NCBI GenBank assembly: GCA_009746045.1
Contig: RPFO01000288.1
Location: 537,855 to 601,854, forward strand
Source: Mesostigma viride
Taxonomy: Eukaryota > Streptophyta > Mesostigmatophyceae > Mesostigmatales > Mesostigmataceae
Direction: 5' to 3'
Length of the DNA stretch: 64,000 nucleotides
Under the pieces are notes generated by a model. It ran no database searches. It saw only the letters and a program-made list of their open reading frames with translations, and had not been told where the DNA came from. Positions 24,787 to 48,933 of this stretch are shown one piece after another (the first letter of the stretch is position 1; each line of letters opens with the position of its first letter). The position numbers and the translations under genes were made by a program.

Positions 24787-27700
24787 CTAGCCATGCAAGG
24801 GCTTCAGAATGGGCGCCCCCAGAATTTGTCGCAGCTGAATCTGGGCCTTCTCAAACTGGTCATCGCTCATCGCGGGTGGCAGGGACAGATAGTTCTCTGG
24901 CAGGGAGTCCCTGACAGGCAGGTCCAGCCACGACTTGCAGCCGCCGTACTCCGCCAGCACAGGGATCTGGCAGGCATGACGAGGGGGCAGCGATGACGAG
25001 GGGGCAGCCATGATGAGGGGGCAGCCATGACGAGGGGGCAGCCATGATGAGGGGGAAGGCATGACGAGGGGGCAGGCATGATGAGGGGGCAGCCATGACG
25101 AGGGGGCAGCCATGATGAGGGGGCAGCCATGACGAGGGGGCAGCCATGACGAGGGGGCAGCCATGATGAGGGGGCAGGCATGAGGAGGGGGCAGGCATGG
25201 TGAGGGGGCAGGCATGAGGAGGGGGCAGGCATGATGAGGGGGCAGGCATGATGAGGGGGAAGGCATGACGAGGGGGCAGCCATGATGAGGGGGCAGCCAT
25301 GATGAGGGGGCAGCCATGATGAGGGGGCAGGCATGAGGAGGGGGCAGCCATGACAAGGGGGCAGGCATGAGGAGGGGGCAGGCATGATGAGGGGGCAGCC
25401 ATGATGAGGGGGCAGGCATGATGAGGGGGCAGGCATGATGAGGGGGGGAATGGGCAGCCGTGATGAGGGAGGCCAGTAGTGAGGGAAGTCGTCGTGAGGG
25501 CAGCAACCATGGAGAAGCCCTCATAGAGAAGCAACCATGAGAGAAGCCACCATGAGAGAAGCAACCATGAAGGAAGCAACCATGAAGGACGGCAACCATG
25601 GAATGAGCAACCATGGAATGAGCAACCATGGAATGAGCAACCATGGAATGAGCAACCATGGAATGAGCAACCATGGAATGAGCAACCACGGAATGAGCAA
25701 CCATGGAATGAGCAACCATGGAATGAGCAACCATGGAATGAGCAACCATGGAATGAGCAACCATGGAATGAGCAACCATGGAATGAGCAACCACCAGGGA
25801 AGCAACCATGGCAGAGACAGTGGCAGAGGAGCGCAGCAGCCCGCAGCCCGCATAAGCACAAGCTTTAACAAAGGAAAAAAAATACATCCTGGGAAGTTCG
25901 CAATGGCATCCCCACGCAGGATGGTTCCTCATCCTGAAAGCGGTCGGTCCATTAGTCCACCACCTCGCGCCGAATCCTGTGCAGCAGCCACCCCACTATG
26001 ACACTAGTGACGCAGCCATCCGCCCTGTACCTGAGCCGGTTGCAGCAGGAGCAACCAACCCTCACTTGACACTGCCTTGCCAAGCTGCAGTAGTAATAGC
26101 TATTTTAGTAACAACAGGAACAACAGCGGTGACGATAATAATGCCGCCCCTCACCTGCACGGGCTGCGGCAGCAGCAGTCATCAATAAACAATGACAACA
26201 ACGATAATAAGAATTAACTTCCCCACACCTGCACGGGTTGCGGCAGCAGCAGCGCGCGCAGCTCCAGCACCGTCAGCGGCCGCTCCTCGTGCCAGCTCAT
26301 CCGGGCCTCCAGGAACTCCTGCGACCACACGTGCAGGTCGTCCAGGCGTGCCAGCAGCGTGCGGTCGGCGGTGGACCACACGCCCGTGACCAGCGCCAGC
26401 ACGCCCAGCGATGCCACCTGGCGCAAGAGGGAGAGGGGGGGGGGATGCCAGGCAGGCGAAGGGGAGAGGAAGTGAGACGGGGGGGGGGGGGTGAGGAGAG
26501 GGGAGGAGAGGGGAGGAGAGGGGAGAGGGGGGACGAGAGGAGAGAGGGGGGAGGGGACAGGCAAGGGGGGATGGAACAGGAGAAGGGGGGATGGGACAGG
26601 AGAGGAGGGATGAGAGGGGAGAGGGGGGATGGAATGGGAGAAGGGGGATGAAACAGGGGATATGGTATGGGGGACGAGCGCAGTCTGGCGAAAGGGCGAT
26701 ATTTAGGTCAGGGCTGCAGATCGCAGGTTAAGAAAGAAGGACGGATGGCCGTGGAGATTGTGCAAAGAGGGGCGCTGGTGGCAGGTCGACTTCTGCTTCA
26801 ACCCAGCGGAGGTTAACCCACAAGAGCAGAGTAGAATGGCCGTGCTTCTTGCTGAAACGATGACCCGTTGGCGAGGCCGGTGGTGTGGCAGTATGCCAGC
26901 ATGATGGCATGTTGATGCGGCGGCAACATGCCATGCCCAATCATCATTTACCCAGGGGGCATGCACAACACACGACCCACACAAGCATGGCAGGAACGAC
27001 CCGCCTCTCCAAGTCACGCCGCTGCTTACCACCATACTCCTTCAAGAAGGCAGAACCGCTGCTTACTAGGAAACCAAATGCAGGACTATACTGTTTACAA
27101 AGGGGGTCCACCTCTACTGCAAAGGGGGCGCACCACTACTGGCTGGGCCATGGCGGGACAACAATGACCAGTCGTGGCCTGTCATCGCCCACCACCTGGT
27201 AGCTGGAGCATCATCGCCCACACTACTCAATGCAGAGGCAAGGGCACGTCTCTGCTGCATGCACGGGTGGGCCACCTCCTCTGCATGCATGTATGCCGAC
27301 ACACGCAAGAACACGGCCGCCTAACTAGTCTTGCCGCCAAACCCTGCTCACCTCTGCATGCGCGGTTCCCTCGAGGTGGTAAACACTAGACAGCGCTGCC
27401 GCTGGTAAGACAAGACCCTCCTCCTCTGCGGGCCCTGCCCCCTCGGCGGGCACCGGTATTGCTAGCCAATGCAACCCACCTCCTCTGCGGGCCCTGCCCC
27501 CTCGGCGGGCACCGGTATTGCTAGCCAATGCAACCCACCTCCTCTGCGGGCCCTGCCCCCTCGGCGGGCACCGGTATTGCTAGCCAGTGCAACCCACCTC
27601 CTCTGCGGGCCCTGCCCCCACGGCGGGCACCGGTATCACTAGCCAATGCAACCCACCTCCTCTGCGGGCCCTGCCCCCTCGGTGGGCACCAGGAATCGTG

Positions 27701-30700
27701 CGTACTCCTTTGCCGCATGCGGCTTGAGCATTCCGGGGGTGGCGTGGAACCTGGGCGTGGCGCAGACAGGCAAGTAAGGCAGGCATGAAACCCCAGGCAA
27801 GTTTAGTGCGTGGTTCGTTCACAAGGGGGGGGGAGGGGACATGGGCTCCGCGCAAGTGGGCAAGCAAGGCAGGCAAGTGAGGTCATGCACAGGCCAACAC
27901 GCAAAGGTCGCACCCACGTGAATACACATGTGAGCCGGCAAGACGCCATCAAGGCAGAGCCACCAGCAAGCAAGCAGGCAGGCAAAGGAGCACGATCACG
28001 TGTGCACGAACCGGCAAGCAAGGTCATGCGAACGCAAGTCAAGCCAGCCATGGATTGCATCGCAGATTCACCCACGAACCAGCGACGAGACGTACGGGAC
28101 GAGCAAGGAGAATGGGGCGGTCCAAACAAGGCGAGGGAGAACGTCCGAGGAGACGATGGGAAGGAGGCTAGGAGAAGGGCCGAGGGAGCGGTGACAAAGC
28201 GGCGGACCGCGTGCACTAATATTGGATGCTGGGTATGACTTACTGTCACCCCCACGTCTGCAAGTGAAGGTACCCCCAAGGGCAAGCAGGGAAAGGAGCA
28301 CCATTGGAGCCTCGCCGCGTGCACCCCCACGCCGCACACGAGGCAACGATTGGGGCAAGCTCACGAGGTGAGAATGGCCAGATAGCCTTTTGTCCTAAAA
28401 TAAAGCCTTATATGAAATATAGCCCTTTCTTCCTAAGATAAAGCCAACGCCAGCCGAGCATCCACCACACCTGACAGCTGGCATGGAAAGATGGAGCACG
28501 CGCGCCGCGGGCATGCGCACAGGAAGGATGCCACCGTCCACAAAGGAAGCGGATTGCATGCACTTCGCCACCCAAGGGCTTCTGCTAAACCAAGTACAGC
28601 GGCCAGAGCCGATGGCCTGATCTTACAGAAGCCCATTGTTTGATGGGAGTGCACTTGGCACTGCAATTTGCTTTCCTCAAGGATAGCTAGCTTGGACGGA
28701 TACATAAGTGATCGCCAAGCCAGCCTAGTGGATGCCAACCGGTCAGCATGCAAGGTTAGCCTCCGTGCGCCCAGCGAAGCATGTCTATGTCTAAGCATCG
28801 CGCATGAGTATCATATCCCGGATGGGAGTGGCGCGCACTTGGTGGGGTAGAGGATGGAAAGGAAGGGAACACGCGACGGTGCGCACTTGGTGGGGTAGAG
28901 GATGGAAAGGGAGGGAACACGCGACGGTGCGCACTTGGTAGGGTAGAGGATGGGAAGGATAAACACGCGACGGTGCGCACTTGGTAGGGTAGAGGATGGG
29001 AAGGGAACACGCGACGGTGCGCACTTGGTGGGGTAGAGGATGGGAAGGGAACACGCGACGGTGCGCACTTGGTGGGGTAGAGGATGGGAAGGGAACACGC
29101 GACGGTGCGCACTTGGTGGGGTAGAGGATGGGAAGGGAACACGCGACGGTGCGCACTTGGTGGGGTAGAGGATGGGAAGGGAACACGCGACGGTGCGCAC
29201 TTGGTGGGGTAGAGGATGGGAAGGGAACACGCGACGGTGCGCACTTGGTGGGGTAGAGGATGGGAAGGGAACACGCGACGGTGCGCACTTGGTGGGGTAG
29301 AGGATGGGAAGGGAACACGCGACGGTGCGCACTTGGTGGGGTAGAGGATGGGAAGGGAACACGCGACGGTGCGCACTTGGTAGGGTAGAGGATGGGAAGG
29401 GAACACGCGACGGTGCGCACTTGGTGGGGTAGAGGATGGGAAGGGAACACGCGACGGTGCGCACTTGGTGGGGTAGAGGATGGGAAGGGAACACGCGACG
29501 GTGCGCACTTGGTAGGGTAGAGGATGGGAAGGGAACACGCGACGGTGCGCACTTGGTAGGGTAGAGGATGGGAAGGGAACACGCGACGGTGCGCACTTGG
29601 TGGGGTAGAGGATGGGAAGGGAACACGCGACGGTGCGCACTTGGTAGGGTAGAGGATGGGAAGGGAACACGCGACGGTGCGCACTTGGTAGGGTAGAGGA
29701 TGGGAAGGGAACACGCGACGGTGCGCACTTGGTGGGGTAGAGGATGGGAAGGGAACACGCGACGGTGCGCACTTGGTAGGGTAGAGGATGGGAAGGGAAC
29801 ACGCGACGGTGCGCACTTGGTGGGGTAGAGGATGGGAAGGGAACACGCGACGGTGCGCACTTGGTGGGGTAGAGGATGGGAAGGGAACACGCGACGGTGC
29901 GCACTTGGTAGGGTAGAGGATGGGAAGGGAACACGCGACGGTGCGCACTTGGTAGGGTAGAGGATGGGAAGGGAACACGCGACGGTGCGCACTTGGTGGG
30001 GTAGAGGATGGGAAGGGAACACGCGACGGTGCGCACTTGGTAGGGTAGAGGATGGGAAGGGAACACGCGACGGTGCGCACTTGGTAGGGTAGAGGATGGG
30101 AAGGGAACACGCGACGGTGCGCACTTGGTAGGGTAGAGGATGGGAAGGGAACACGCGACGGTGCGCACTTGGTGGGGTAGAGGATGGGAAGGGAACACGC
30201 GACGGTGCGCACTTGGTGGGGTAGAGGATGGGAAGGGAACACGCGACGGTGCGCACTTGGTAGGGTAGAGGATGGGAAGGGAACACGCGACGGTGCGCAC
30301 TTGGTAGGGTAGAGGATGGGAAGGGAACACGCGACGGTGCGCACTTGGTGGGGTAGAGGATGGGAAGGGAACACGCGACGGTGCGCACTTGGTGGGGTAG
30401 AGGATGGGAAGGGAACACGCGACGGTGCGCACTTGGTGGGGTAGAGGATGGGAAGGGAACACGCGACGGTGCGCACTTGGTGGGGTAGAGGATGGGAAGG
30501 GAACACGCGACGGTGCGCACTTGGTGGGGTAGAGGATGGGAAGGGAACACGCGACGGTGCGCACTTGGTGGGGTAGAGGATGGGAAGGGAACACGCGACG
30601 GTGCGCACTTGGTAGGGTAGAGGATGGGAAGGGAACACGCGACGGTGCGCACTTGGTGGGGTAGAGGATGGGAAGGGAACACGCGACGGTGCGCACTTGG

Positions 30701-33700
30701 TGGGGTAGAGGATGGGAAGGGAACACGCGACGGTGCGCACTTGGTGGGGTAGAGGATGGGAAGGGAACACGCGACGGTGCGCACTTGGTAGGGTAGAGGA
30801 TGGGAAGGGAACACGCGACGGTGCGCACTTGGTGGGGTAGAGGATGGGAAGGGAACACGCGACGGTGCGCACTTGGTAGGGTAGAGGATGGGAAGGGAAC
30901 ACGCGACGGTGCGCACTTGGTGGGGTAGAGGATGGGAAGGGAACACGCGACGGTGCGCACTTGGTGGGGTAGAGGATGGGAAGGGAACACGCGACGGTGC
31001 GCACTTGGTAGGGTAGAGGATGGGAAGGGAACACGCGACGGTGCGCACTTGGTGGGGTAGAGGATGGGAAGGGAACACGCGACGGTGCGCACTTGGTGGG
31101 GTAGAGGATGGGAAGGGAACACGCGACGGTGCGCACTTGGTGGGGTAGAGGATGGGAAGGGAACACGCGACGGTGCGCACTTGGTGGGTAGAGGATGGGA
31201 AGGGAACACGCGACGGTGCGCACTTGGTGGGGTAGAGGATGGGAAGGGAACACGCGACGGTGCGCACTTGGTGGGGTAGAGGATGGGAAGGGAACACGCG
31301 ACGGTGCGCACTTGGTGGGGTAGAGGATGGGAAGGGAACACGCGACGGTGCGCACTTGGTGGGGTAGAGGATGGGAAGGGAACACGCGACGGTGCGCACT
31401 TGGTAGGGTAGAGGATGGGAAGGGAACACGCGACGGTGCGCACTTGGTGGGTAGAGGATGGGAAGGGAACACGCGACGGTGCGCACTTGGTGGGGTAGAG
31501 GATGGGAAGGGAACACGCGACGGTGCGCACTTGGTGGGGTAGAGGATGGGAAGGGAACACGCGACGGTGCGCACTTGGTAGGGTAGAGGATGGGAAGGGA
31601 ACACGCGACGGTGCGCACTTGGTGGGGTAGAGGATGGGAAGGGAACACGCGACGGTGCGCACTTGGTGGGGTAGAGGATGGGAAGGGAACACGCGACGGT
31701 GCGCACTTGGTAGGGTAGAGGATGGGAAGGGAACACGCGACGGTGCGCACTTGGTGGGGTAGAGGATGGGAAGGGAACACGCGACGGTGCGCACTTGGTG
31801 GGGTAGAGGATGGGAAGGGAACACGCGACGGTGCGCACTTGGTGGGGTAGAGGATGGGAAGGGAACACGCGACGGTGCGCACTTGGTGGGGTAGAGGATG
31901 GGAAGGGAACACGCGACGGTGCGCACTTGGTGGGGTAGAGGATGGGAAGGGAACACGCGACGGTGCGCACTTGGTGGGGTAGAGGATGGGAAGGGAACAC
32001 GCGACGGTGCGCACTTGGTGGGTAGAGGATGGGAAGGGAACACGCGACGGTGCGCACTTGGTGGGGTAGAGGATGGGAAGGGAACACGCGACGGTGCGCA
32101 CTTGGTGGGGTAGAGGATGGGAAGGGAACACGCGACGGTGCGCACTTGGTGGGGTAGAGGATGGGAAGGGAACACGCGACGGTGCGCACTTGGTGGGGTA
32201 GAGGATGGGAAGGGAACACGCGACGGTGCGCACTTGGTGGGGTAGAGGATGGGAAGGGAACACGCGACGGTGCGCACTTGGTGGGTAGAGGATGGGAAGG
32301 GAACACGCGACGGTGCGCACTTGGTGGGTAGAGGATGGGAAGGGAACACGCGACGGTGCGCACTTGGTGGGGTAGAGGATGGGAAGGGAACACGCGACGG
32401 TGCGCACTTGGTGGGGTAGAGGATGGGAAGGGAACACGCGACGGTGCGCACTTGGTGGGGTAGAGGATGGGAAGGGAACACGCGACGGTGCGCACTTGGT
32501 GGGTAGAGGATGGGAAGGGAACACGCGACGGTGCGCACTTGGTGGGTAGAGGATGGGAAGGGAACACGCGACGGTGCGCACTTGGTGGGGTAGAGGATGG
32601 GAAGGGAACACGCGACGGTGCGCACTTGGTGGGGTAGAGGATGGGAAGGGAACACGCGACGGTGCGCACTTGGTGGGGTAGAGGATGGGAAGGGAACACG
32701 CGACGGTGCGCACTTGGTGGGGTAGAGGATGGGAAGGGAACACGCGACGGTGCGCACTTGGTGGGGTAGAGGATGGGAAGGGAACACGCGACGGTGCGCA
32801 CTTGGTGGGTAGAGGATGGGAAGGGAACACGCGACGGTGCGCACTTGGTGGGGTAGAGGATGGGAAGGGAACACGCGACGGTGCGCACTTGGTGGGGTAG
32901 AGGATGGGAAGGGAACACGCGACGGTGCGCACTTGGTGGGGTAGAGGATGGGAAGGGAACACGCGACGGTGCGCACTTGGTGGGTAGAGGATGGGAAGGG
33001 AACACGCGACGGTGCGCACTTGGTGGGGTAGAGGATGGGAAGGGAACACGCGACGGTGCGCACTTGGTGGGGTAGAGGATGGGAAGGGAACACGCGACGG
33101 TGCGCACTTGGTGGGGTAGAGGATGGGAAGGGAACACGCGACGGTGCGCACTTGGTGGGGTAGAGGATGGGAAGGGAACACGCGACGGTGCGCACTTGGT
33201 GGGGTAGAGGATGGGAAGGGAACACGCGACGGTGCGCACTTGGTGGGGTAGAGGATGGGAAGGGAACACGCGACGGTGCGCACTTGGTGGGGTAGAGGAT
33301 GGGAAGGGAACACGCGACGGTGCGCACTTGGTGGGGTAGAGGATGGGAAGGGAACACGCGACGGTGCGCACTTGGTGGGGTAGAGGATGGGAAGGGAACA
33401 CGCGACGGTGCGCACTTGGTGGGTAGAGGATGGGAAGGGAACACGCGACGGTGCGCACTTGGTGGGGTAGAGGATGGGAAGGGAACACGCGACGGTGCGC
33501 ACTTGGTGGGTAGAGGATGGGAAGGGAACACGCGACGGTGCGCACTTGGTGGGTAGAGGATGGGAAGGGAACACGCGACGGTGCGCACTTGGTGGGGTAG
33601 AGGATGGGAAGGGAACACGCGACGGTGCGCACTTGGTAGGGTAGAGGATGGGAAGGGAACACGCGACGGTGCGCACTTGGTGGGTAGAGGATGGGAAGGG

Positions 33701-36700
33701 AACACGCGACGGTGCGCACTTGGTGGGTAGAGGATGGGAAGGGAACACGCGACGGTGCGCACTTGGTGGGGTAGAGGATGGGAAGGGAACACGCGACGGT
33801 GCGCACTTGGTGGGGTAGAGGATGGGAAGGGAACACGCGACGGTGCGCACTTGGTGGGGTAGAGGATGGGAAGGGAACACGCGACGGTGCGCACTTGGTG
33901 GGGTAGAGGATGGGAAGGGAACACGCGACGGTGCGCACTTGGTGGGGTAGAGGATGGGAAGGGAACACGCGACGGTGCGCACTTGGTGGGTAGAGGATGG
34001 GAAGGGAACACGCGACGGTGCGCACTTGGTGGGTAGAGGATGGGAAGGGAACACGCGACGGTGCGCACTTGGTGGGTAGAGGATGGGAAGGGAACACGCG
34101 ACGGTGCGCACTTGGTGGGGTAGAGGATGGGAAGGGAACACGCGACGGTGCGCACTTGGTGGGGTAGAGGATGGGAAGGGAACACGCGACGGTGCGCACT
34201 TGGTGGGGTAGAGGATGGGAAGGGAACACGCGACGGTGCGCACTTGGTGGGGTAGAGGATGGGAAGGGAACACGCGACGGTGCGCACTTGGTGGGGTAGA
34301 GGATGGGAAGGGAACACGCGACGGTGCGCACTTGGTGGGGTAGAGGATGGGAAGGGAACACGCGACGGTGCGCACTTGGTGGGTAGAGGATGGGAAGGGA
34401 ACACGCGACGGTGCGCACTTGGTGGGTAGAGGATGGGAAGGGAACACGCGACGGTGCGCACTTGGTGGGGTAGAGGATGGGAAGGGAACACGCGACGGTG
34501 CGCACTTGGTGGGTAGAGGATGGGAAGGGAACACGCGACGGTGCGCACTTGGTGGGTAGAGGATGGGAAGGGAACACGCGACGGTGCGCACTTGGTGGGT
34601 AGAGGATGGGAAGGGAACACGCGACGGTGCGCACTTGGTGGGGTAGAGGATGGGAAGGGAACACGCGACGGTGCGCACTTGGTGGGTAGAGGATGGGAAG
34701 GGAACACGCGACGGTGCGCACTTGGTAGGGTAGAGGATGGGAAGGGAACACGCGACGGTGCGCACTTGGTGGGGTAGAGGATGGGAAGGGAACACGCGAC
34801 GGTGCGCACTTGGTGGGTAGAGGATGGGAAGGGAACACGCGACGGTGCGCACTTGGTGGGGTAGAGGATGGGAAGGGAACACGCGACGGTGCGCACTTGG
34901 TGGGTAGAGGATGGGAAGGGAACACGCGACGGTGCGCACTTGGTGGGTAGAGGATGGGAAGGGAACACGCGACGGTGCGCACTTGGTGGGTAGAGGATGG
35001 GAAGGGAACACGCGACGGTGCGCACTTGGTAGGGTAGAGGATGGGAAGGGAACACGCGACGGTGCGCACTTGGTGGGTAGAGGATGGGAAGGGAACACGC
35101 GACGGTGCGCACTTGGTGGGTAGAGGATGGGAAGGGAACACGCGACGGTGCGCACTTGGTGGGTAGAGGATGGGAAGGGAACACGCGACGGTGCGCACTT
35201 GGTGGGGTAGAGGATGGGAAGGGAACACGCGACGGTGCGCACTTGGTGGGTAGAGGATGGGAAGGGAACACGCGACGGTGCGCACTTGGTGGGTAGAGGA
35301 TGGGAAGGGAACACGCGACGGTGCGCACTTGGTGGGTAGAGGATGGGAAGGGAACACGCGACGGTGCGCACTTGGTGGGGTAGAGGATGGGAAGGGAACA
35401 CGCGACGGTGCGCACTTGGTGGGGTAGAGGATGGGAAGGGAACACGCGACGGTGCGCACTTGGTGGGGTAGAGGATGGGAAGGGAACACGCGACGGTGCG
35501 CACTTGGTGGGTAGAGGATGGGAAGGGAACACGCGACGGTGCGCACTTGGTGGGGTAGAGGATGGGAAGGGAACACGCGACGGTGCGCACTTGGTGGGTA
35601 GAGGATGGGAAGGGAACACGCGACGGTGCGCACTTGGTGGGTAGAGGATGGGAAGGGAACACGCGACGGTGCGCACTTGGTGGGGTAGAGGATGGGAAGG
35701 GAACACGCGACGGTGCGCACTTGGTGGGTAGAGGATGGGAAGGGAACACGCGACGGTGCGCACTTGGTGGGGTAGAGGATGGGAAGGGAACACGCGACGG
35801 TGCGCACTTGGTGGGTAGAGGATGGGAAGGGAACACGCGACGGTGCGCACTTGGTGGGTAGAGGATGGGAAGGGAACACGCGACGGTGCGCACTTGGTGG
35901 GTAGAGGATGGGAAGGGAACACGCGACGGTGCGCACTTGGTGGGTAGAGGATGGGAAGGGAACACGCGACGGTGCGCACTTGGTGGGGTAGAGGATGGGA
36001 AGGGAACACGCGACGGTGCGCACTTGGTGGGTAGAGGATGGGAAGGGAACACGCGACGGTGCGCACTTGGTAGGGTAGAGGATGGGAAGGGAACACGCGA
36101 CGGTGCGCACTTGGTGGGTAGAGGATGGGAAGGGAACACGCGACGGTGCGCACTTGGTGGGTAGAGGATGGGAAGGGAACACGCGACGGTGCGCACTTGG
36201 TGGGTAGAGGATGGGAAGGGAACACGCGACGGTGCGCACTTGGTGGGGTAGAGGATGGGAAGGGAACACGCGACGGTGCGCACTTGGTGGGTAGAGGATG
36301 GGAAGGGAACACGCGACGGTGCGCACTTGGTGGGTAGAGGATGGGAAGGGAACACGCGACGGTGCGCACTTGGTGGGTAGAGGATGGGAAGGGAACACGC
36401 GACGGTGCGCACTTGGTGGGGTAGAGGATGGGAAGGGAACACGCGACGGTGCGCACTTGGTGGGTAGAGGATGGGAAGGGAACACGCGACGGTGCGCACT
36501 TGGTGGGTAGAGGATGGGAAGGGAACACGCGACGGTGCGCACTTGGTGGGTAGAGGATGGGAAGGGAACACGCGACGGTGCGCACTTGGTGGGTAGAGGA
36601 TGGGAAGGGAACACGCGACGGTGCGCACTTGGTGGGTAGAGGATGGGAAGGGAACACGCGACGGTGCGCACTTGGTAGGGTAGAGGATGGGAAGGGAACA

Positions 36701-39700
36701 CGCGACGGTGCGCACTTGGTGGGTAGAGGATGGGAAGGGAACACGCGACGGTGCGCACTTGGTGGGGTAGAGGATGGGAAGGGAACACGCGACGGTGCGC
36801 ACTTGGTGGGTAGAGGATGGGAAGGGAACACGCGACGGTGCGCACTTGGTGGGTAGAGGATGGGAAGGGAACACGCGACGGTGCGCACTTGGTGGGTAGA
36901 GGATGGGAAGGGAACACGCGACGGTGCGCACTTGGTGGGTAGAGGATGGGAAGGGAACACGCGACGGTGCGCACTTGGTGGGGTAGAGGATGGGAAGGGA
37001 ACACGCGACGGTGCGCACTTGGTGGGTAGAGGATGGGAAGGGAACACGCGACGGTGCGCACTTGGTGGGTAGAGGATGGGAAGGGAACACGCGACGGTGC
37101 GCACTTGGTGGGTAGAGGATGGGAAGGGAACACGCGACGGTGCGCACTTGGTGGGTAGAGGATGGGAAGGGAACACGCGACGGTGCGCACTTGGTGGGTA
37201 GAGGATGGGAAGGGAACACGCGACGGTGCGCACTTGGTGGGTAGAGGATGGGAAGGGAACACGCGACGGTGCGCACTTGGTGGGGTAGAGGATGGGAAGG
37301 GAACACGCGACGGTGCGCACTTGGTGGGTAGAGGATGGGAAGGGAACACGCGACGGTGCGCACTTGGTGGGTAGAGGATGGGAAGGGAACACGCGACGGT
37401 GCGCACTTGGTGGGTAGAGGATGGGAAGGGAACACGCGACGGTGCGCACTTGGTGGGTAGAGGATGGGAAGGGAACACGCGACGGTGCGCACTTGGTGGG
37501 GTAGAGGATGGGAAGGGAACACGCGACGGTGCGCACTTGGTGGGTAGAGGATGGGAAGGGAACACGCGACGGTGCGCACTTGGTGGGTAGAGGATGGGAA
37601 GGGAACACGCGACGGTGCGCACTTGGTGGGTAGAGGATGGGAAGGGAACACGCGACGGTGCGCACTTGGTGGGTAGAGGATGGGAAGGGAACACGCGACG
37701 GTGCGCACTTGGTGGGTAGAGGATGGGAAGGGAACACGCGACGGTGCGCACTTGGTGGGTAGAGGATGGGAAGGGAACACGCGACGGTGCGCACTTGGTG
37801 GGTAGAGGATGGGAAGGGAACACGCGACGGTGCGCACTTGGTGGGGTAGAGGATGGGAAGGGAACACGCGACGGTGCGCACTTGGTGGGTAGAGGATGGG
37901 AAGGGAACACGCGACGGTGCGCACTTGGTGGGTAGAGGATGGGAAGGGAACACGCGACGGTGCGCACTTGGTGGGTAGAGGATGGGAAGGGAACACGCGA
38001 CGGTGCGCACTTGGTGGGTAGAGGATGGGAAGGGAACACGCGACGGTGCGCACTTGGTGGGTAGAGGATGGGAAGGGAACACGCGACGGTGCGCACTTGG
38101 TAGGGTAGAGGATGGGAAGGGAACACGCGACGGTGCGCACTTGGTGGGTAGAGGATGGGAAGGGAACACGCGACGGTGCGCACTTGGTGGGTAGAGGATG
38201 GGAAGGGAACACGCGACGGTGCGCACTTGGTGGGGTAGAGGATGGGAAGGGAACACGCGACGGTGCGCACTTGGTGGGTAGAGGATGGGAAGGGAACACG
38301 CGACGGTGCGCACTTGGTAGGGTAGAGGATGGGAAGGGAACACGCGACGGTGCGCACTTGGTGGGTAGAGGATGGGAAGGGAACACGCGACGGTGCGCAC
38401 TTGGTGGGTAGAGGATGGGAAGGGAACACGCGACGGTGCGCACTTGGTGGGTAGAGGATGGGAAGGGAACACGCGACGGTGCGCACTTGGTGGGTAGAGG
38501 ATGGGAAGGGAACACGCGACGGTGCGCACTTGGTGGGTAGAGGATGGGAAGGGAACACGCGACGGTGCGCACTTGGTGGGTAGAGGATGGGAAGGGAACA
38601 CGCGACGGTGCGCACTTGGTGGGTAGAGGATGGGAAGGGAACACGCGACGGTGCGCACTTGGTGGGTAGAGGATGGGAAGGGAACACGCGACGGTGCGCA
38701 CTTGGTGGGTAGAGGATGGGAAGGGAACACGCGACGGTGCGCACTTGGTGGGTAGAGGATGGGAAGGGAACACGCGACGGTGCGCACTTGGTGGGTAGAG
38801 GATGGGAAGGGAACACGCGACGGTGCGCACTTGGTAGGGTAGAGGATGGGAAGGGAACACGCGACGGTGCGCACTTGGTGGGTAGAGGATGGGAAGGGAA
38901 CACGCGACGGTGCGCACTTGGTGGGTAGAGGATGGGAAGGGAACACGCGACGGTGCGCACTTGGTGGGGTAGAGGATGGGAAGGGAACACGCGACGGTGC
39001 GCACTTGGTGGGTAGAGGATGGGAAGGGAACACGCGACGGTGCGCACTTGGTAGGGTAGAGGATGGGAAGGGAACACGCGACGGTGCGCACTTGGTAGGG
39101 TAGAGGATGGGAAGGGAACACGCGACGGTGCGCACTTGGTGGGTAGAGGATGGGAAGGGAACACGCGACGGTGCGCACTTGGTGGGTAGAGGATGGGAAG
39201 GGAACACGCGACGGTGCGCACTTGGTGGGTAGAGGATGGGAAGGGAACACGCGACGGTGCGCACTTGGTGGGTAGAGGATGGGAAGGGAACACGCGACGG
39301 TGCGCACTTGGTGGGTAGAGGATGGGAAGGGAACACGCGACGGTGCGCACTTGGTGGGGTAGAGGATGGGAAGGGAACACGCGACGGTGCGCACTTGGTG
39401 GGTAGAGGATGGGAAGGGAACACGCGACGGTGCGCACTTGGTAGGGTAGAGGATGGGAAGGGAACACGCGACGGTGCGCACTTGGTGGGTAGAGGATGGG
39501 AAGGGAACACGCGACGGTGCGCACTTGGTGGGTAGAGGATGGGAAGGGAACACGCGACGGTGCGCACTTGGTGGGTAGAGGATGGGAAGGGAACACGCGA
39601 CGGTGCGCACTTGGTGGGTAGAGGATGGGAAGGGAACACGCGACGGTGCGCACTTGGTAGGGTAGAGGATGGGAAGGGAACACGCGACGGTGCGCACTTG

Positions 39701-42700
39701 GTGGGTAGAGGATGGGAAGGGAACACGCGACGGTGCGCACTTGGTGGGTAGAGGATGGGAAGGGAACACGCGACGGTGCGCACTTGGTGGGTAGAGGATG
39801 GGAAGGGAACACGCGACGGTGCGCACTTGGTGGGGTAGAGGATGGGAAGGGAACACGCGACGGTGCGCACTTGGTGGGGTAGAGGATGGGAAGGGAACAC
39901 GCGACGGTGCGCACTTGGTGGGTAGAGGATGGGAAGGGAACACGCGACGGTGCGCACTTGGTGGGTAGAGGATGGGAAGGGAACACGCGACGGTGCGCAC
40001 TTGGTGGGTAGAGGATGGGAAGGGAACACGCGACGGTGCGCACTTGGTAGGGTAGAGGATGGGAAGGGAACACGCGACGGTGCGCACTTGGTGGGTAGAG
40101 GATGGGAAGGGAACACGCGACGGTGCGCACTTGGTAGGGTAGAGGATGGGAAGGGAACACGCGACGGTGCGCACTTGGTGGGTAGAGGATGGGAAGGGAA
40201 CACGCGACGGTGCGCACTTGGTAGGGTAGAGGATGGGAAGGGAACACGCGACGGTGCGCACTTGGTGGGTAGAGGATGGGAAGGGAACACGCGACGGTGC
40301 GCACTTGGTGGGTAGAGGATGGGAAGGGAACACGCGACGGTGCGCACTTGGTGGGTAGAGGATGGGAAGGGAACACGCGACGGTGCGCACTTGGTGGGTA
40401 GAGGATGGGAAGGGAACACGCGACGGTGCGCACTTGGTGGGGTAGAGGATGGGAAGGGAACACGCGACGGTGCGCACTTGGTGGGTAGAGGATGGGAAGG
40501 GAACACGCGACGGTGCGCACTTGGTGGGGTAGAGGATGGGAAGGGAACACGCGACGGTGCGCACTTGGTGGGTAGAGGATGGGAAGGGAACACGCGACGG
40601 TGCGCACTTGGTGGGTAGAGGATGGGAAGGGAACACGCGACGGTGCGCACTTGGTGGGTAGAGGATGGGAAGGGAACACGCGACGGTGCGCACTTGGTAG
40701 GGTAGAGGATGGGAAGGGAACACGCGACGGTGCGCACTTGGTGGGGTAGAGGATGGGAAGGGAACACGCGACGGTGCGCACTTGGTGGGTAGAGGATGGG
40801 AAGGGAACACGCGACGGTGCGCACTTGGTGGGTAGAGGATGGGAAGGGAACACGCGACGGTGCGCACTTGGTGGGTAGAGGATGGGAAGGGAACACGCGA
40901 CGGTGCGCACTTGGTGGGGTAGAGGATGGGAAGGGAACACGCGACGGTGCGCACTTGGTGGGTAGAGGATGGGAAGGGAACACGCGACGGTGCGCACTTG
41001 GTGGGTAGAGGATGGGAAGGGAACACGCGACGGTGCGCACTTGGTGGGGTAGAGGATGGGAAGGGAACACGCGACGGTGCGCACTTGGTGGGTAGAGGAT
41101 GGGAAGGGAACACGCGACGGTGCGCACTTGGTGGGTAGAGGATGGGAAGGGAACACGCGACGGTGCGCACTTGGTGGGTAGAGGATGGGAAGGGAACACG
41201 CGACGGTGCGCACTTGGTGGGTAGAGGATGGGAAGGGAACACGCGACGGTGCGCACTTGGTGGGTAGAGGATGGGAAGGGAACACGCGACGGTGCGCACT
41301 TGGTAGGGTAGAGGATGGGAAGGGAACACGCGACGGTGCGCACTTGGTGGGTAGAGGATGGGAAGGGAACACGCGACGGTGCGCACTTGGTGGGTAGAGG
41401 ATGGGAAGGGAACACGCGACGGTGCGCACTTGGTGGGTAGAGGATGGGAAGGGAACACGCGACGGTGCGCACTTGGTGGGTAGAGGATGGGAAGGGAACA
41501 CGCGACGGTGCGCACTTGGTGGGGTAGAGGATGGGAAGGGAACACGCGACGGTGCGCACTTGGTGGGGTAGAGGATGGGAAGGGAACACGCGACGGTGCG
41601 CACTTGGTGGGTAGAGGATGGGAAGGGAACACGCGACGGTGCGCACTTGGTGGGGTAGAGGATGGGAAGGGAACACGCGACGGTGCGCACTTGGTAGGGT
41701 AGAGGATGGGAAGGGAACACGCGACGGTGCGCACTTGGTAGGGTAGAGGATGGGAAGGGAACACGCGACGGTGCGCACTTGGTGGGTAGAGGATGGGAAG
41801 GGAACACGCGACGGTGCGCACTTGGTAGGGTAGAGGATGGGAAGGGAACACGCGACGGTGCGCACTTGGTGGGTAGAGGATGGGAAGGGAACACGCGACG
41901 GTGCGCACTTGGTGGGTAGAGGATGGGAAGGGAACACGCGACGGTGCGCACTTGGTGGGGTAGAGGATGGGAAGGGAACACGCGACGGTGCGCACTTGGT
42001 AGGGTAGAGGATGGGAAGGGAACACGCGACGGTGCGCACTTGGTGGGTAGAGGATGGGAAGGGAACACGCGACGGTGCGCACTTGGTGGGTAGAGGATGG
42101 GAAGGGAACACGCGACGGTGCGCACTTGGTGGGTAGAGGATGGGAAGGGAACACGCGACGGTGCGCACTTGGTAGGGTAGAGGATGGGAAGGGAACACGC
42201 GACGGTGCGCACTTGGTGGGTAGAGGATGGGAAGGGAACACGCGACGGTGCGCACTTGGTGGGTAGAGGATGGGAAGGGAACACGCGACGGTGCGCACTT
42301 GGTGGGGTAGAGGATGGGAAGGGAACACGCGACGGTGCGCACTTGGTAGGGTAGAGGATGGGAAGGGAACACGCGACGGTGCGCACTTGGTGGGTAGAGG
42401 ATGGGAAGGGAACACGCGACGGTGCGCACTTGGTAGGGTAGAGGATGGGAAGGGAACACGCGACGGTGCGCACTTGGTGGGGTAGAGGATGGGAAGGGAA
42501 CACGCGACGGTGCGCACTTGGTGGGTAGAGGATGGGAAGGGAACACGCGACGGTGCGCACTTGGTAGGGTAGAGGATGGGAAGGGAACACGCGACGGTGC
42601 GCACTTGGTGGGTAGAGGATGGGAAGGGAACACGCGACGGTGCGCACTTGGTGGGTAGAGGATGGGAAGGGAACACGCGACGGTGCGCACTTGGTGGGTA

Positions 42701-45700
42701 GAGGATGGGAAGGGAACACGCGACGGTGCGCACTTGGTGGGTAGAGGATGGGAAGGGAACACGCGACGGTGCGCACTTGGTAGGGTAGAGGATGGGAAGG
42801 GAACACGCGACGGTGCGCACTTGGTGGGTAGAGGATGGGAAGGGAACACGCGACGGTGCGCACTTGGTGGGTAGAGGATGGGAAGGGAACACGCGACGGT
42901 GCGCACTTGGTAGGGTAGAGGATGGGAAGGGAACACGCGACGGTGCGCACTTGGTAGGGTAGAGGATGGGAAGGGAACACGCGACGGTGCGCACTTGGTA
43001 GGGTAGAGGATGGGAAGGGAACACGCGACGGTGCGCACTTGGTAGGGTAGAGGATGGGAAGGGAACACGCGACGGTGCGCACTTGGTGGGGTAGAGGATG
43101 GGAAGGGAACACGCGACGGTGCGCACTTGGTGGGTAGAGGATGGGAAGGGAACACGCGACGGTGCGCACTTGGTGGGGTAGAGGATGGGAAGGGAACACG
43201 CGACGGTGCGCACTTGGTGGGGTAGAGGATGGGAAGGGAACACGCGACGGTGCGCACTTGGTGGGTAGAGGATGGGAAGGGAACACGCGACGGTGCGCAC
43301 TTGGTGGGGTAGAGGATGGGAAGGGAACACGCGACGGTGCGCACTTGGTGGGTAGAGGATGGGAAGGGAACACGCGACGGTGCGCACTTGGTGGGTAGAG
43401 GATGGGAAGGGAACACGCGACGGTGCGCACTTGGTGGGGTAGAGGATGGGAAGGGAACACGCGACGGTGCGCACTTGGTGGGTAGAGGATGGGAAGGGAA
43501 CACGCGACGGTGCGCACTTGGTGGGGTAGAGGATGGGAAGGGAACACGCGACGGTGCGCACTTGGTAGGGTAGAGGATGGGAAGGGAACACGCGACGGTG
43601 CGCACTTGGTGGGGTAGAGGATGGGAAGGGAACACGCGACGGTGCGCACTTGGTGGGTAGAGGATGGGAAGGGAACACGCGACGGTGCGCACTTGGTGGG
43701 TAGAGGATGGGAAGGGAACACGCGACGGTGCGCACTTGGTGGGTAGAGGATGGGAAGGGAACACGCGACGGTGCGCACTTGGTAGGGTAGAGGATGGGAA
43801 GGGAACACGCGACGGTGCGCACTTGGTGGGTAGAGGATGGGAAGGGAACACGCGACGGTGCGCACTTGGTGGGGTAGAGGATGGGAAGGGAACACGCGAC
43901 GGTGCGCACTTGGTGGGGTAGAGGATGGGAAGGGAACACGCGACGGTGCGCACTTGGTGGGTAGAGGATGGGAAGGGAACACGCGACGGTGCGCACTTGG
44001 TGGGGTAGAGGATGGGAAGGGAACACGCGACGGTGCGCACTTGGTGGGGTAGAGGATGGGAAGGGAACACGCGACGGTGCGCACTTGGTGGGTAGAGGAT
44101 GGGAAGGGAACACGCGACGGTGCGCACTTGGTGGGTAGAGGATGGGAAGGGAACACGCGACGGTGCGCACTTGGTAGGGTAGAGGATGGGAAGGGAACAC
44201 GCGACGGTGCGCACTTGGTGGGTAGAGGATGGGAAGGGAACACGCGACGGTGCGCACTTGGTGGGTAGAGGATGGGAAGGGAACACGCGACGGTGCGCAC
44301 TTGGTGGGTAGAGGATGGGAAGGGAACACGCGACGGTGCGCACTTGGTGGGTAGAGGATGGGAAGGGAACACGCGACGGTGCGCACTTGGTGGGTAGAGG
44401 ATGGGAAGGGAACACGCGACGGTGCGCACTTGGTGGGTAGAGGATGGGAAGGGAACACGCGACGGTGCGCACTTGGTGGGGTAGAGGATGGGAAGGGAAC
44501 ACGCGACGGTGCGCACTTGGTAGGGTAGAGGATGGGAAGGGAACACGCGACGGTGCGCACTTGGTAGGGTAGAGGATGGGAAGGGAACACGCGACGGTGC
44601 GCACTTGGTGGGGTAGAGGATGGGAAGGGAACACGCGACGGTGCGCACTTGGTGGGTAGAGGATGGGAAGGGAACACGCGACGGTGCGCACTTGGTGGGG
44701 TAGAGGATGGGAAGGGAACACGCGACGGTGCGCACTTGGTGGGTAGAGGATGGGAAGGGAACACGCGACGGTGCGCACTTGGTAGGGTAGAGGATGGGAA
44801 GGGAACACGCGACGGTGCGCACTTGGTGGGTAGAGGATGGGAAGGGAACACGCGACGGTGCGCACTTGGTGGGGTAGAGGATGGGAAGGGAACACGCGAC
44901 GGTGCGCACTTGGTAGGGTAGAGGATGGGAAGGGAACACGCGACGGTGCGCACTTGGTGGGTAGAGGATGGGAAGGGAACACGCGACGGTGCGCACTTGG
45001 TAGGGTAGAGGATGGGAAGGGAACACGCGACGGTGCGCACTTGGTGGGGTAGAGGATGGGAAGGGAACACGCGACGGTGCGCACTTGGTAGGGTAGAGGA
45101 TGGGAAGGGAACACGCGACGGTGCGCACTTGGTGGGGTAGAGGATGGGAAGGGAACACGCGACGGTGCGCACTTGGTGGGTAGAGGATGGGAAGGGAACA
45201 CGCGACGGTGCGCACTTGGTGGGTAGAGGATGGGAAGGGAACACGCGACGGTGCGCACTTGGTGGGGTAGAGGATGGGAAGGGAACACGCGACGGTGCGC
45301 ACTTGGTGGGTAGAGGATGGGAAGGGAACACGCGACGGTGCGCACTTGGTGGGTAGAGGATGGGAAGGGAACACGCGACGGTGCGCACTTGGTGGGTAGA
45401 GGATGGGAAGGGAACACGCGACGGTGCGCACTTGGTAGGGTAGAGGATGGGAAGGGAACACGCGACGGTGCGCACTTGGTAGGGTAGAGGATGGGAAGGG
45501 AACACGCGACGGTGCGCACTTGGTGGGTAGAGGATGGGAAGGGAACACGCGACGGTGCGCACTTGGTAGGGTAGAGGATGGGAAGGGAACACGCGACGGT
45601 GCGCACTTGGTGGGTAGAGGATGGGAAGGGAACACGCGACGGTGCGCACTTGGTGGGGTAGAGGATGGGAAGGGAACACGCGACGGTGCGCACTTGGTAG

Positions 45701-48089
45701 GGTAGAGGATGGGAAGGGAACACGCGACGGTGCGCACTTGGTGGGGTAGAGGATGGGAAGGGAACACGCGACGGTGCGCACTTGGTGGGTAGAGGATGGG
45801 AAGGGAACACGCGACGGTGCGCACTTGGTGGGTAGAGGATGGGAAGGGAACACGCGACGGTGCGCACTTGGTGGGGTAGAGGATGGGAAGGGAACACGCG
45901 ACGGTGCGCACTTGGTGGGTAGAGGATGGGAAGGGAACACGCGACGGTGCGCACTTGGTGGGGTAGAGGATGGGAAGGGAACACGCGACGGTGCGCACTT
46001 GGTAGGGTAGAGGATGGGAAGGGAACACGCGACGGTGCGCACTTGGTGGGTAGAGGATGGGAAGGGAACACGCGACGGTGCGCACTTGGTAGGGTAGAGG
46101 ATGGGAAGGGAACACGCGACGGTGCGCACTTGGTGGGTAGAGGATGGGAAGGGAACACGCGACGGTGCGCACTTGGTAGGGTAGAGGATGGGAAGGGAAC
46201 ACGCGACGGTGCGCACTTGGTAGGGTAGAGGATGGGAAGGGAACACGCGACGGTGCGCACTTGGTAGGGTAGAGGATGGGAAGGGAACACGCGACGGTGC
46301 GCACTTGGTAGGGTAGAGGATGGGAAGGGAACACGCGACGGTGCGCACTTGGTGGGTAGAGGATGGGAAGGGAACACGCGACGGTGCGCACTTGGTGGGT
46401 AGAGGATGGGAAGGGAACACGCGACGGTGCGCACTTGGTGGGTAGAGGATGGGAAGGGAACACGCGACGGTGCGCACTTGGTAGGGTAGAGGATGGGAAG
46501 GGAACACGCGACGGTGCGCACTTGGTGGGTAGAGGATGGGAAGGGAACACGCGACGGTGCGCACTTGGTGGGGTAGAGGATGGGAAGGGAACACGCGACG
46601 GTGCGCACTTGGTGGGGTAGAGGATGGGAAGGGAACACGCGACGGTGCGCACTTGGTAGGGTAGAGGATGGGAAGGGAACACGCGACGGTGCGCACTTGG
46701 TAGGGTAGAGGATGGGAAGGGAACACGCGACGGTGCGCACTTGGTAGGGTAGAGGATGGGAAGGGAACACGCGACGGTGCGCACTTGGTAGGGTAGAGGA
46801 TGGGAAGGGAACACGCGACGGTGCGCACTTGGTGGGTAGAGGATGGGAAGGGAACACGCGACGGTGCGCACTTGGTAGGGTAGAGGATGGGAAGGGAACA
46901 CGCGACGGTGCGCACTTGGTGGGTAGAGGATGGGAAGGGAACACGCGACGGTGCGCACTTGGTGGGGTAGAGGATGGGAAGGGAACACGCGACGGTGCGC
47001 ACTTGGTGGGGTAGAGGATGGGAAGGGAACACGCGACGGTGCGCACTTGGTGGGGTAGAGGATGGGAAGGGAACACGCGACGGTGCGCACTTGGTGGGGT
47101 AGAGGATGGGAAGGGAACACGCGACGGTGCGCACTTGGTGGGGTAGAGGATGGGAAGGGAACACGCGACGGTGCGCACTTGGTAGGGTAGAGGATGGGAA
47201 GGGAACACGCGACGGTGCGCACTTGGTAGGGTAGAGGATGGGAAGGGAACACGCGACGGTGCGCACTTGGTGGGGTAGAGGATGGGAAGGGAACACGCGA
47301 CGGTGCGCACTTGGTAGGGTAGAGGATGGGAAGGGAACACGCGACGGTGCGCACTTGGTGGGGTAGAGGATGGAAAGGAAGGGAACACGCGACGGTGCGC
47401 ACTTGGTAGGGTAGAGGATGGAAAGGAAGGGAACACGCGACGGTGCGCACTTGGTAGGACAGAGGATGAATCCAGGATAAATACGCGACGGTACGTACTT
47501 GGTAGGATAGAGGATGAAGGACGACGACGCCAACGCGAAGGGGCCTTTGTCCTTCAGACCGCCCTTCCGGATGAGGATCGTCTGCGTCTCGGATGCCGAG
47601 AACATAACGATGAATCCAGACAAACGCAGCAAGCAACCCAATTTTAGATATGGCGATTGCGGAGATGGAAGGACAGACCGTGCATTTATATGCATGTCTT
47701 TTTCATGCCGCCTCGCCACGGCTTCTAACAAGGGAATGGGACTTTTGGCTGCCAATCGAACAAGCAAGAAAGCCACACCCTATTCAATGGCAGTTTCCCC
47801 GGTACCGATACTCTAAACACGCATACTATTCTAACTATTTAAATCTTCTAACCTGATGACCGTTCCGAAGAGCTTCGATGGTCGCCGCCCATTCCTTCAG
47901 CGCAGGCACAACCGCTGCCGGAGCGACCTTCTCAGGAGCGGCCGATGCCAGGCATGGCGAGCGAGGCTTAGACGTCGCTTTCTTGCTGGGGCTTGCTAGC
48001 CGTATGACACGGGGTGCCGAGATAGTGCTTCCATGGAAAGCAACCTTGCTGCAGGTTTGTACTGCTTGGGATGCGAGGAATTCAGTCAT
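24787..48089 (-). CDS. DUF1802-family protein, five exons over 23.3 kb
   Basis: Exons on the minus strand: 48089-47853, 47581-47499, 27750-27657, 26417-26229 and 24966-24787. All have AG/GT borders and phases join exactly (0, 2, 0, 0), giving 260 codons from ATG to TAG. Exon 1 is a serine-, alanine- and arginine-rich leader, likely a plastid transit peptide, then LKEWAATIEALRNGHQ. Exon 2 reads TILIRKGGLKDKGPF to SSSFILYPT. Exon 3 reads FHATPGMLKPHAAKEYARFL. Exon 4 holds VTGVWSTADRTLLARLDDLH and LELRALLLPQPVQ. Exon 5 starts IPVLAEYGGCKSWLDL. These blocks in this order match DUF1802 as I remember it (RKGG, LYPT, LKP, LPQP, EYGGCKSW); the biochemical function is unknown. Intron 2 carries an 18.7-kb satellite, and introns 3 and 4 carry smaller arrays. 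Three 5' splice junctions are tandemly duplicated. Whether so large a repeated intron is still spliced is not known from sequence. Confidence 0.82.
24967..25450. repeat. 17-bp minisatellite abutting a 3' splice site
   Basis: About 28 copies of a 17-bp unit, CAGCCATGATGAGGGGG on the plus strand, with changes confined to a few positions (C/G at the fourth base, A/C/G near the middle). The array starts at the acceptor of the last DUF1802 exon: on the minus strand each unit is a C/T-rich stretch ending near CATGCCTG or CATGGCTG, like the real acceptor CATGCCTGCCAG. The proline-rich ORFs through it are not genes. Confidence 0.93.
25525..25815. repeat. 15-bp minisatellite
   Basis: About 13 near-perfect copies of AACCATGGAATGAGC (25593-25791) flanked by degenerate units (AGAAGCAACCATGA types). 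It lies in DUF1802 intron 4. The plus-strand frame NHGMS repeated is fortuitous. Confidence 0.95.
26142..26256 (-). repeat. 74-bp duplication of the exon 4/intron 4 junction
   Basis: The end of exon 4 with its donor (minus strand CTGCTGCTGCCGCAACC, then CGTGCAG and GTGTGG at 26229/26228) is repeated 74 bp downstream as CTGCTGCTGCCGCAGCC, CGTGCAG and GTGAGG (26155/26154). Flanking ACGATAATA words also repeat. Using the second donor would put an in-frame TAA in the protein, so the first is the likely productive site. Confidence 0.88.
26430..26690. repeat. Purine-rich low-complexity tract
   Basis: Plus strand almost only G and A (GGGGAGAGG and GGGATGG words). On the minus strand it is a long C/T tract directly upstream of the exon 4 acceptor, so it may act as an extended polypyrimidine tract. 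Confidence 0.85.
27421..27700 (-). repeat. 59-bp minisatellite made from the exon 3/intron 3 junction
   Basis: Period 59 bp; the junction word (minus strand GGGCCCGCAGAGGAG) occurs at 27657, 27598, 27539, 27480 and 27421. The first is the true end of exon 3. Four of the five are followed by the same donor GTGGGT. About 33 bp of each unit is exon-derived and the rest is intron. Confidence 0.92.
27751..28832. other. DUF1802 intron 2 sequence left of the array
   Basis: About 1.1 kb of intron between the satellite and exon 3. It is rich in short words such as GGCAAGCAAG and GCAGGCA but shows no gene. The frames here lack family resemblance. Confidence 0.45.
28833..47503. repeat. Giant 43/44-bp satellite, about 428 copies
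   Basis: One uninterrupted head-to-tail array. On the minus strand the unit reads CATCCTCTACCCTACCAA then GTGCGCACCGTCGCGTGTTC then CCTTCC. Three forms differ at one spot on the plus strand: GGTGGGGTAGA and GGTAGGGTAGA (44 bp) and GGTGGGTAGA (43 bp). The right end merges with exon 2 of the DUF1802 gene, whose last 18 bases (CATCCTCTATCCTACCAA) and donor GTACGTACCG form the first, diverged unit. The outermost units on both sides have a longer GGAAAGGAAGGG core. Copy number is estimated from length. No unit has a stop codon in any minus-strand frame. Confidence 0.97.
47582..47852 (-). other. DUF1802 intron 1
   Basis: 271-bp intron with donor CAG/GTTAGA at 47853/47852 and acceptor GACGCAG ending at 47582. 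No repeats and no duplication of its splice sites, unlike the next three introns. Confidence 0.7.
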
Positions 48090-48933
48090 GGCGATTACGT
48101 CACGTGGTAACCTCAGCAGGAAATGGCGGAGGATATCCTGGCCGGAACTACAATGCGAGGGTGAACCAGCGGGCAGGCTAAGCGGGAAAGTGGAGTTTGC
48201 AATATGAATCTATCAATTCAGCACTCTCGGCCTTAATCCCGCGGTCGCTGATCTTGCTCTCTAAGCGGCCTGTTCCCGTTTGCCTGCCTAAATATCTCCC
48301 CGCCAGAAAAGCCATAGCCTGTCGAAGGTTTTCTTGGCAGGAAATGGGATTTGCCACGCGGCAAACAACTCCGATCCGTGTGCGCGCCAAAGATGGAAGA
48401 GATCCGCTACAGTTGCAATTACCCCCCTGCAGGTAGCAGTGTGCTGTGTACGGTGAGCTTCCATGTAGCGGTCAGTGGCTCTCCAGCAGCATTTGGTTCT
48501 TGCAGGGACGGTAGGAAGTGAGTAGGAACTAGGAAGTTGGAACTATGTCAGTATTACCTACCGTCAGCATTACTGTAGCGACACGATGCCCCGTGCAATG
48601 CTACCGAAGATATGGCTACCGAAGTCCCGAGCGGGGAGGGGGGCTTCGATCACGGCTTTGCAGAACAAGAATACTTGAAATATATTGGCGAGCGTTCAAG
48701 GCATGATGACGTGCGTACTTTGCACATGAATGTGAAATTGTGATTGTGTTGGAAGTGTTGAGCTCTTTATGCATTTGACGAGGCTGAACGTGGTCGCTTC
48801 TTCTCGTGCGCACGCTAGGGAACGTTGTACGCGCATTGGCGCACCGGATTGGCTCTGTGCAGGGAGCAGTTGACGTGGTGATGTCTGTGACGCTCCAAGC
48901 ATCGGCCACGGATGTGCTCGCGTGTACACTATA
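48090..48933. promoter_or_regulatory. Divergent intergenic region
   Basis: 844 bp between the start of the DUF1802 gene (minus) and the start of the glycosyltransferase-like gene (plus). It must hold both promoters. I see no clear TATA box or coding segment. CAGTATTACCTACCGTCAGCATTACTG near 48550 is made of repeated short words. Confidence 0.45.

Follow-up and report, generated by a model that had tools for sequence, protein, structure and literature searches.

A giant intronic minisatellite very probably grown from the exon 2/intron 2 donor junction of its host DUF1802 gene

Results

The window, by which we mean the whole 64,000-nucleotide stretch that was analysed (C1835:537855-601854), carries on its minus strand a five-exon DUF1802 gene with a single tandem array filling most of its second intron. 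The gene model, with exon ends set by homology, phase and splice consensus, consists of the following parts.

47853..48089, minus: exon 1 (MTEF...ALRNGHQ); spliced model, phases consistent
47499..47581, minus: exon 2, ending in FILYPT plus AA, donor AA|GTACGT; spliced model, motif conserved in prokaryote homologues
27751..47498, minus: intron 2, 19,748 bp, of which ∼18.6 kb are array and ∼1.1 kb non-array; TRF and gene model
27657..27750, minus: exon 3; gene model, with no inserted column at the exon 2/3 join when 78 homologues are aligned
26229..26417, minus: exon 4; gene model, and a genome search match over the Pfam cut-off
24787..24966, minus: exon 5 including the stop codon; gene model

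The four introns (271, 19,748, 1,239, and 1,262 bp) all run GT...AG with compatible phases, the predicted product is 260 amino acids long, and the five joined exons match positions 1-171 of 174 of the Pfam profile PF08819 (E = 2.1e-45). Our genome searches covered a 440-Mb assembly of 2243 contigs, with stretches of N outside the search; the profile search returned exon 4 of this gene as its only DUF1802 match at E≤0.001, and no second copy of the gene was found there. In the DUF1802 relative P0007, one open frame runs across the domain and seemingly none of the four introns of the window gene is present; either these introns were gained in the window gene or they were lost in P0007.

A putative plus strand gene lies divergently to the DUF1802 gene, their start codons ∼0.84 kb apart (48090-48933), and searches with its model gave nothing in Pfam at E up to 1, nor a homologue with E up to 0.001. 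Elsewhere in the window, a 1181-codon single open frame (7809-11351) joins a protein kinase, a HECT-like stretch, and an RZ zinc finger; ten window ORFs searched against Pfam at E up to 0.1 gave no match.

The array sits at the start of intron 2, and its sense strand is the minus strand. TRF placed it at 28833-47468 with a 44-bp period, 427.5 copies, and 98% matches; an 87-bp period from the same program was discarded as a mere mixture of 43- and 44-bp units. Counting the anchor CATCCTCT along the sense strand of the array as assembled, on which the copy number depends, gave 429 units including the exonic source, that is, 428 further units without interruption, the last of them partial. A preliminary description of this DNA had counted about 428 uninterrupted copies after the first unit, a figure that our count reproduces. 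From the gene outward, the units are arranged as follows.

47469..47516, minus: source unit, 48 bp, its first 18 bases closing exon 2 and its other 30 opening intron 2; sequence and gene model
47373..47468, minus: two relic 48-bp units at the gene-proximal edge; unit listing
28999..47372, minus: homogeneous core of 422 units, with three variants at one site and otherwise unchanged; unit listing
28833..28998, minus: far-edge relics, namely one 46-bp unit with the source's TTTATCC, two 48-bp units, and one partial unit; unit listing

Read from 47516 to 47469, the source unit is CATCCTCTATCCTACCAA|GTACGTACCGTCGCGTATTTATCCTGGATT and shows the junction itself, in agreement with the earlier proposal that the unit combines exon 2 and intron 2 sequence of its own host gene. 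The first unit as quoted in that proposal corresponds to the first 34 bases of the source unit, which differ from the array unit at 3 positions, compared with 14 for the best 34-mer in the window outside the array region. The upper limit of 47581 that had been given for the array is actually the start of exon 2; with the source unit included, the repeat ends at 47516.

Ten distinct units occur among the 429: a 43-bp form (194 units), two 44-bp forms with C (150) or T (78), and seven single units, the source included, all located at the two edges of the array. The core forms differ at one site, TACCC(-/C/T)ACC, where the 43-bp form lacks the base; the sequence earlier quoted for the following units does occur in the array, but as a minority form. 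Since the variable site is T in the source exon, T is taken as ancestral, and because units at the edges measure 48 bp (46 bp in one case), the 44-bp unit, which looks like a derived form, is taken to have arisen by a loss of four bases. The other 17,952 positions of the 422 core units hold zero changes, giving a 95% bound for the core of ∼1.7e-4 changes per site if copies mutate independently. The array contains 429 donor-like sites of the form CCAA|GT(A/G)CG, source included, with GTACGT in the source as against GTGCGC in the copies; the latter hexamer is also found at the start of intron 1 in the putative neighbouring gene.

Within the otherwise unchanged 18.4-kb core, the three states of the variable site follow a smooth gradient from edge to centre while their local order is random. 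The deletion form is missing from the first 13 and the last 53 units and reaches 35 of 43 units in its richest block; its end gap of 49 compares with a maximum of 13 in 5000 shuffles. We found no higher-order repeats or blocks in the order of units, the longest repeated string (13) being not above the null and the maximum lag z being 1.7. Among simulated histories, those nearest to this 13 were long turnover by unequal exchange (longest repeated string 17-26) and a hot variable site (10-23), whereas growth by duplication with a low switching rate produced much longer repeated strings than observed. The distribution of the deletion form is consistent with turnover that acts mainly in the interior of the array and leaves relics at its edges, and a hotspot at the site, conversion, or uncertainty in the read consensus may contribute to the variant order.

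The exonic half of the unit encodes FILYPT. To place this motif, 80 bacterial and archaeal loci were fetched, 78 of which had a readable frame; at this place F.L.P is found in 68 of the 78 homologues, PT in 69, and the following H in all 78, and their alignment has zero inserted columns at the exon 2/3 join. The DUF1802 relatives P0002 and P0005-P0007, alga-like by inspection, likewise read straight through the join. Because the motif is conserved at the same place in prokaryote homologues and there is no break at the join, we take the motif of the gene to be old and the array to be derived from it; a lack of FILYPT from homologues had been named beforehand as an outcome that would contradict such an origin. 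An older occurrence of the satellite elsewhere in the genome, without exon 2 context, had been named as another, and here all matches in the 440-Mb assembly fell inside the window, both for an exact 32-mer of the unit (149 of 149) and for a 31-mer with up to 3 mismatches (426 of 426). Viral contigs held no exact match to the unit. The term satellite, used in the preliminary description, is generous for matches confined to one locus where classical satellites form arrays at several, and a single-locus giant intronic minisatellite is the better fit.

The exon 2/intron 2 junction is not the only one to be repeated: junction duplications, which the preliminary description had missed, were also found in two further introns of the DUF1802 gene, 3 and 4, and in other genes. 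The further repeats at or near junctions of the DUF1802 gene and its putative neighbour are these.

27415..27690, minus: second array at a junction, ∼4.7 copies of a 59-bp unit that joins 34 bases from the end of exon 3 to the first 25 of intron 3; TRF and unit listing
26147..26178, minus: copy of the exon 4/intron 4 donor junction, 74 bp downstream (24 exon and 8 intron bases, 94% identical); score 54 against a null maximum of 25
24969..25446, minus: 17-bp array of 28 copies, reaching the exon 5 acceptor without its AG; TRF and sequence
52637..52674, plus: donor-junction copy in the putative neighbour, source GCCGCAAGG|GTGGGTGC at 52470-52507; score 49 against a null maximum of 25

With a null of 200 shuffles for each junction, the repeat of the exon 3/intron 3 donor junction scored 105 (null maximum 26), and donors 2, 3, and 4, or three of the four donors of the DUF1802 gene, are thus duplicated; the intron 1 donor had no clear spanning copy, nor did any of the four acceptors (0 of 4). 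In the putative neighbour, donor 2 of four was clear (the copy listed above) and donor 4 weak (30 against 26), and one of four acceptors had a marginal copy (32 against a null maximum of 31). When 60-mers were sampled across both genes (every 60 bp in intron 2 and every 10 in the other introns) and every 100 bp in the rest of the window, where genes are unannotated, a copy within 600 bp was found for 1 of 203 in exon interiors, 706 of 1,102 in introns, and 13 of 325 in the rest of the window.

Elsewhere in the genome, we analysed 49 exons in 11 chaperonin (PF00118, CCT) genes, out of 58 genome matches, and 7 of 27 kinesin genes. We scored a junction copy where the exon end recurred in the flank with 12 or more coding bases and the recurring stretch extended to the match end; the flank measured up to 1.5 kb but went no further than the next matched exon, and where the profile missed an exon it may span more than one intron. 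In the chaperonin genes, such copies were present at 7 of the 42 donor ends and 2 of the 42 acceptor ends, and in 1 of 175 exon-interior windows. One of the seven donor matches is doubtful, as the profile match of L124 exon 2 contains stops, and the sole exon-interior match lies in the same exon; the donor ends of L125 exons 3 and 4 were slightly below threshold. The clearest case is L129 exon 4, ending ...NVIRTLTKLRAK|GTGCGT, with the junction present as a 48-bp array of 10 copies. The kinesin genes had such copies at 1 of 15 donor and 2 of 18 acceptor ends and in none of 49 interior windows, while L139 exon 3 (score 35) and, with a score of 97 but only 8 coding bases, L145 exon 2 missed the rule; the donor match, ...LGGNAKVLMFVQ, is followed by seven 22-bp copies and by inspection probably uses a GC donor.

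Pooled over the 18 genes, copies were found at 12 of 117 junction ends and in 1 of 224 exon-interior windows (Fisher p = 1.7e-5, a rough value as windows overlap). The intron-interior rate was 16 of 169, for windows taken from 18 chaperonin introns with downstream copies only and fewer shuffles, and did not differ from the junction rate (p = 0.84, equally rough). The difference between donors (8 of 57) and acceptors (4 of 60) was not significant (p = 0.23, with the same overlap of windows).

Two of the chaperonin loci, L138 and L136 (contigs C1641 and C887), are two versions, ∼96% identical, of one gene, both with a 40-bp repeat in two copies resembling a donor-junction duplication, and an intron of one version is interrupted by an insertion of ∼3.1 kb that resembles a transposon. 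This haplotype-like pair was considered as an instance of variation in array length and rejected, because its large length difference is that insertion and not an array.

Discussion

Minisatellites that span an exon-intron boundary are known from amphioxus as "mirages", and we conclude, at a probability of about 0.9, that the array in DUF1802 intron 2 is a giant mirage that originated by tandem duplication of a 48-bp donor-junction segment and grew in place. The first step would have been the duplication of the segment across the exon 2/intron 2 donor junction, and the second, probably recent, an expansion to 428 copies through unequal exchange or slippage, with the source copy frozen because half of it is exon. 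A donor duplication should leave the original exon end where it was. Splicing would keep the exon-proximal donor GTACGT and pass over the downstream GTGCGC donors, and if the first donor is still used, the duplication would be nearly neutral or silent and the array free to grow, its copies presumably having no function of their own. The history of the array is legible in a way that depends on its source, which is pinned by a protein motif conserved to bacteria, so that the direction of change in the unit can be read without an outgroup.

The preliminary description knew of no amplified splice junction still at its source, but the amphioxus mirages (Adh3, the globins BflGb6 and BflGb9, and splice-site repeats of PGBD5) are of this kind in the parts of those reports that we draw on (PMC3087553, PMC3902484). 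There, mirages are described at either intron end, with regular splicing by RT-PCR and with edge units that escape homogenisation; BflGb6 has six and three units of 150-160 bp in two haplotypes, and the units of Adh3 measure 10-72 bp (PMC3087553). As in these portrayals, the DUF1802 repeats span an exon-intron boundary with exon and intron sequence in the unit, remain in the gene at their source junction, and carry splice signals, here 429 predicted donor-like sites with the source; the interior is concerted and the edges divergent, with 422 of 429 units in the core and all 7 non-core units at the edges. What differs is the scale, 428 copies over 18.6 kb being about two orders of magnitude above the globin copy numbers given in those excerpts, together with the presence of three junction repeats in one gene and, probably, the kind of host, whose genome carries an alga-like DUF1802 gene.

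Other systems resemble this one in part. Genes in human segmental duplications are described, in the sections of PMC2812944 that concern us, as having internal tandem repeats at exon-intron boundaries, on average 30-bp units in four copies, linked to changed exons and new introns; these too are minisatellite expansions over exon-intron boundaries, but no giant intronic array figures in those sections. The potato case, as summarised in PMC4974935, is likewise a tandem duplication crossing an intron/exon boundary, but there one duplication created a new intron, whereas the DUF1802 unit spans the donor alone. Intron gain with the new intron lying between two copies does not describe this locus, as the exon 3 acceptor (27751) is outside the array. 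In the article parts that our literature search reached, no junction-derived array of this size was found, and none of any size was described in those of Chlamydomonas comparative genomics (PMC8226300) or of first-intron minisatellites of earthworm metallothionein (PMC12783039). What is new here is the scale and the breadth of junction duplication, and a host that, to judge by the look of its DUF1802 relatives, is probably an alga, the kind itself being known from mirages.

Boundary-spanning minisatellites have, in the portions cited above, been reported mainly from lancelets (PMC3087553, PMC3902484), and the counts in 18 genes suggest that they may be an ordinary by-product of tandem duplication in repeat-rich introns. 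On the simplest reading, tandem duplications would hit introns and intron edges equally, with exon-interior ones removed by selection. We consider it about an even chance that introns throughout this genome grow from their ends by a standing process of tandem duplication across splice junctions. The array looks like a runaway case of such a recurrent mode, which in other genes usually adds few copies at a time.

A targeted process, such as breakage linked to transcription or splicing, might instead duplicate splice junctions specifically. The three duplicated donors among four in the DUF1802 gene and the higher count at donor than at acceptor ends in the 18 genes would suit it, but the junction rate is about that of intron interiors and the donor excess is not significant, and we regard such targeting as unlikely.

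The assembly itself might mislead, if consensus building inflated a short junction array or scrambled its variants, and a locally random variant order at a site within a run of C is what such an error could leave behind. However, the relic units at one end are unlike those at the other, with unique sequence beyond them on either side, the deletion form is graded over many kilobases instead of appearing at a uniform error rate, and shorter junction arrays are present elsewhere; an artefact is therefore, in our judgement, quite unlikely.

We think it very unlikely that the array is functional, with alternative use of downstream donors extending the DUF1802 protein by a repeat peptide or regulating its splicing. 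Use of a later donor would lengthen exon 2, and the reading frames would permit this to a degree: no frame of the sense unit contains a stop codon, the array can be read through in all three sense frames, the source and the next three donors keep the frame, an open full-length product would result from 153 of 429 donors (source included), and GTGCGC serves as the first donor of the putative neighbouring gene. Yet 276 of the 429 donors would miss the full-length product, the sibling 59-bp unit of intron 3 has a TAG (GGCTAG), and shuffled units of the same composition lacked stops in 46% of draws, for which reason we discarded openness as evidence of selection. That a pre-existing satellite was inserted beside exon 2, or that exon 2 captured part of one, is scarcely credible, the length and high uniformity of the array notwithstanding, as the exonic part codes for a motif that bacteria and archaea also conserve, the unit has no other match in the 440-Mb assembly, and an edge unit retains the source intron's TTTATCC, which is lost from the core.

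If the array did arise as a mirage grown in place, the locus raises a question of splicing, namely how one donor is chosen among 429. The spliceosome would have to choose the first of these donors in a near-identical context, so that first-come donor choice would be put to a natural test here. The donor octamers GTACGTAC (source) and GTGCGCAC (core copies) each form a perfect palindrome, and the two differences between them fall at paired positions, as if compensatory.
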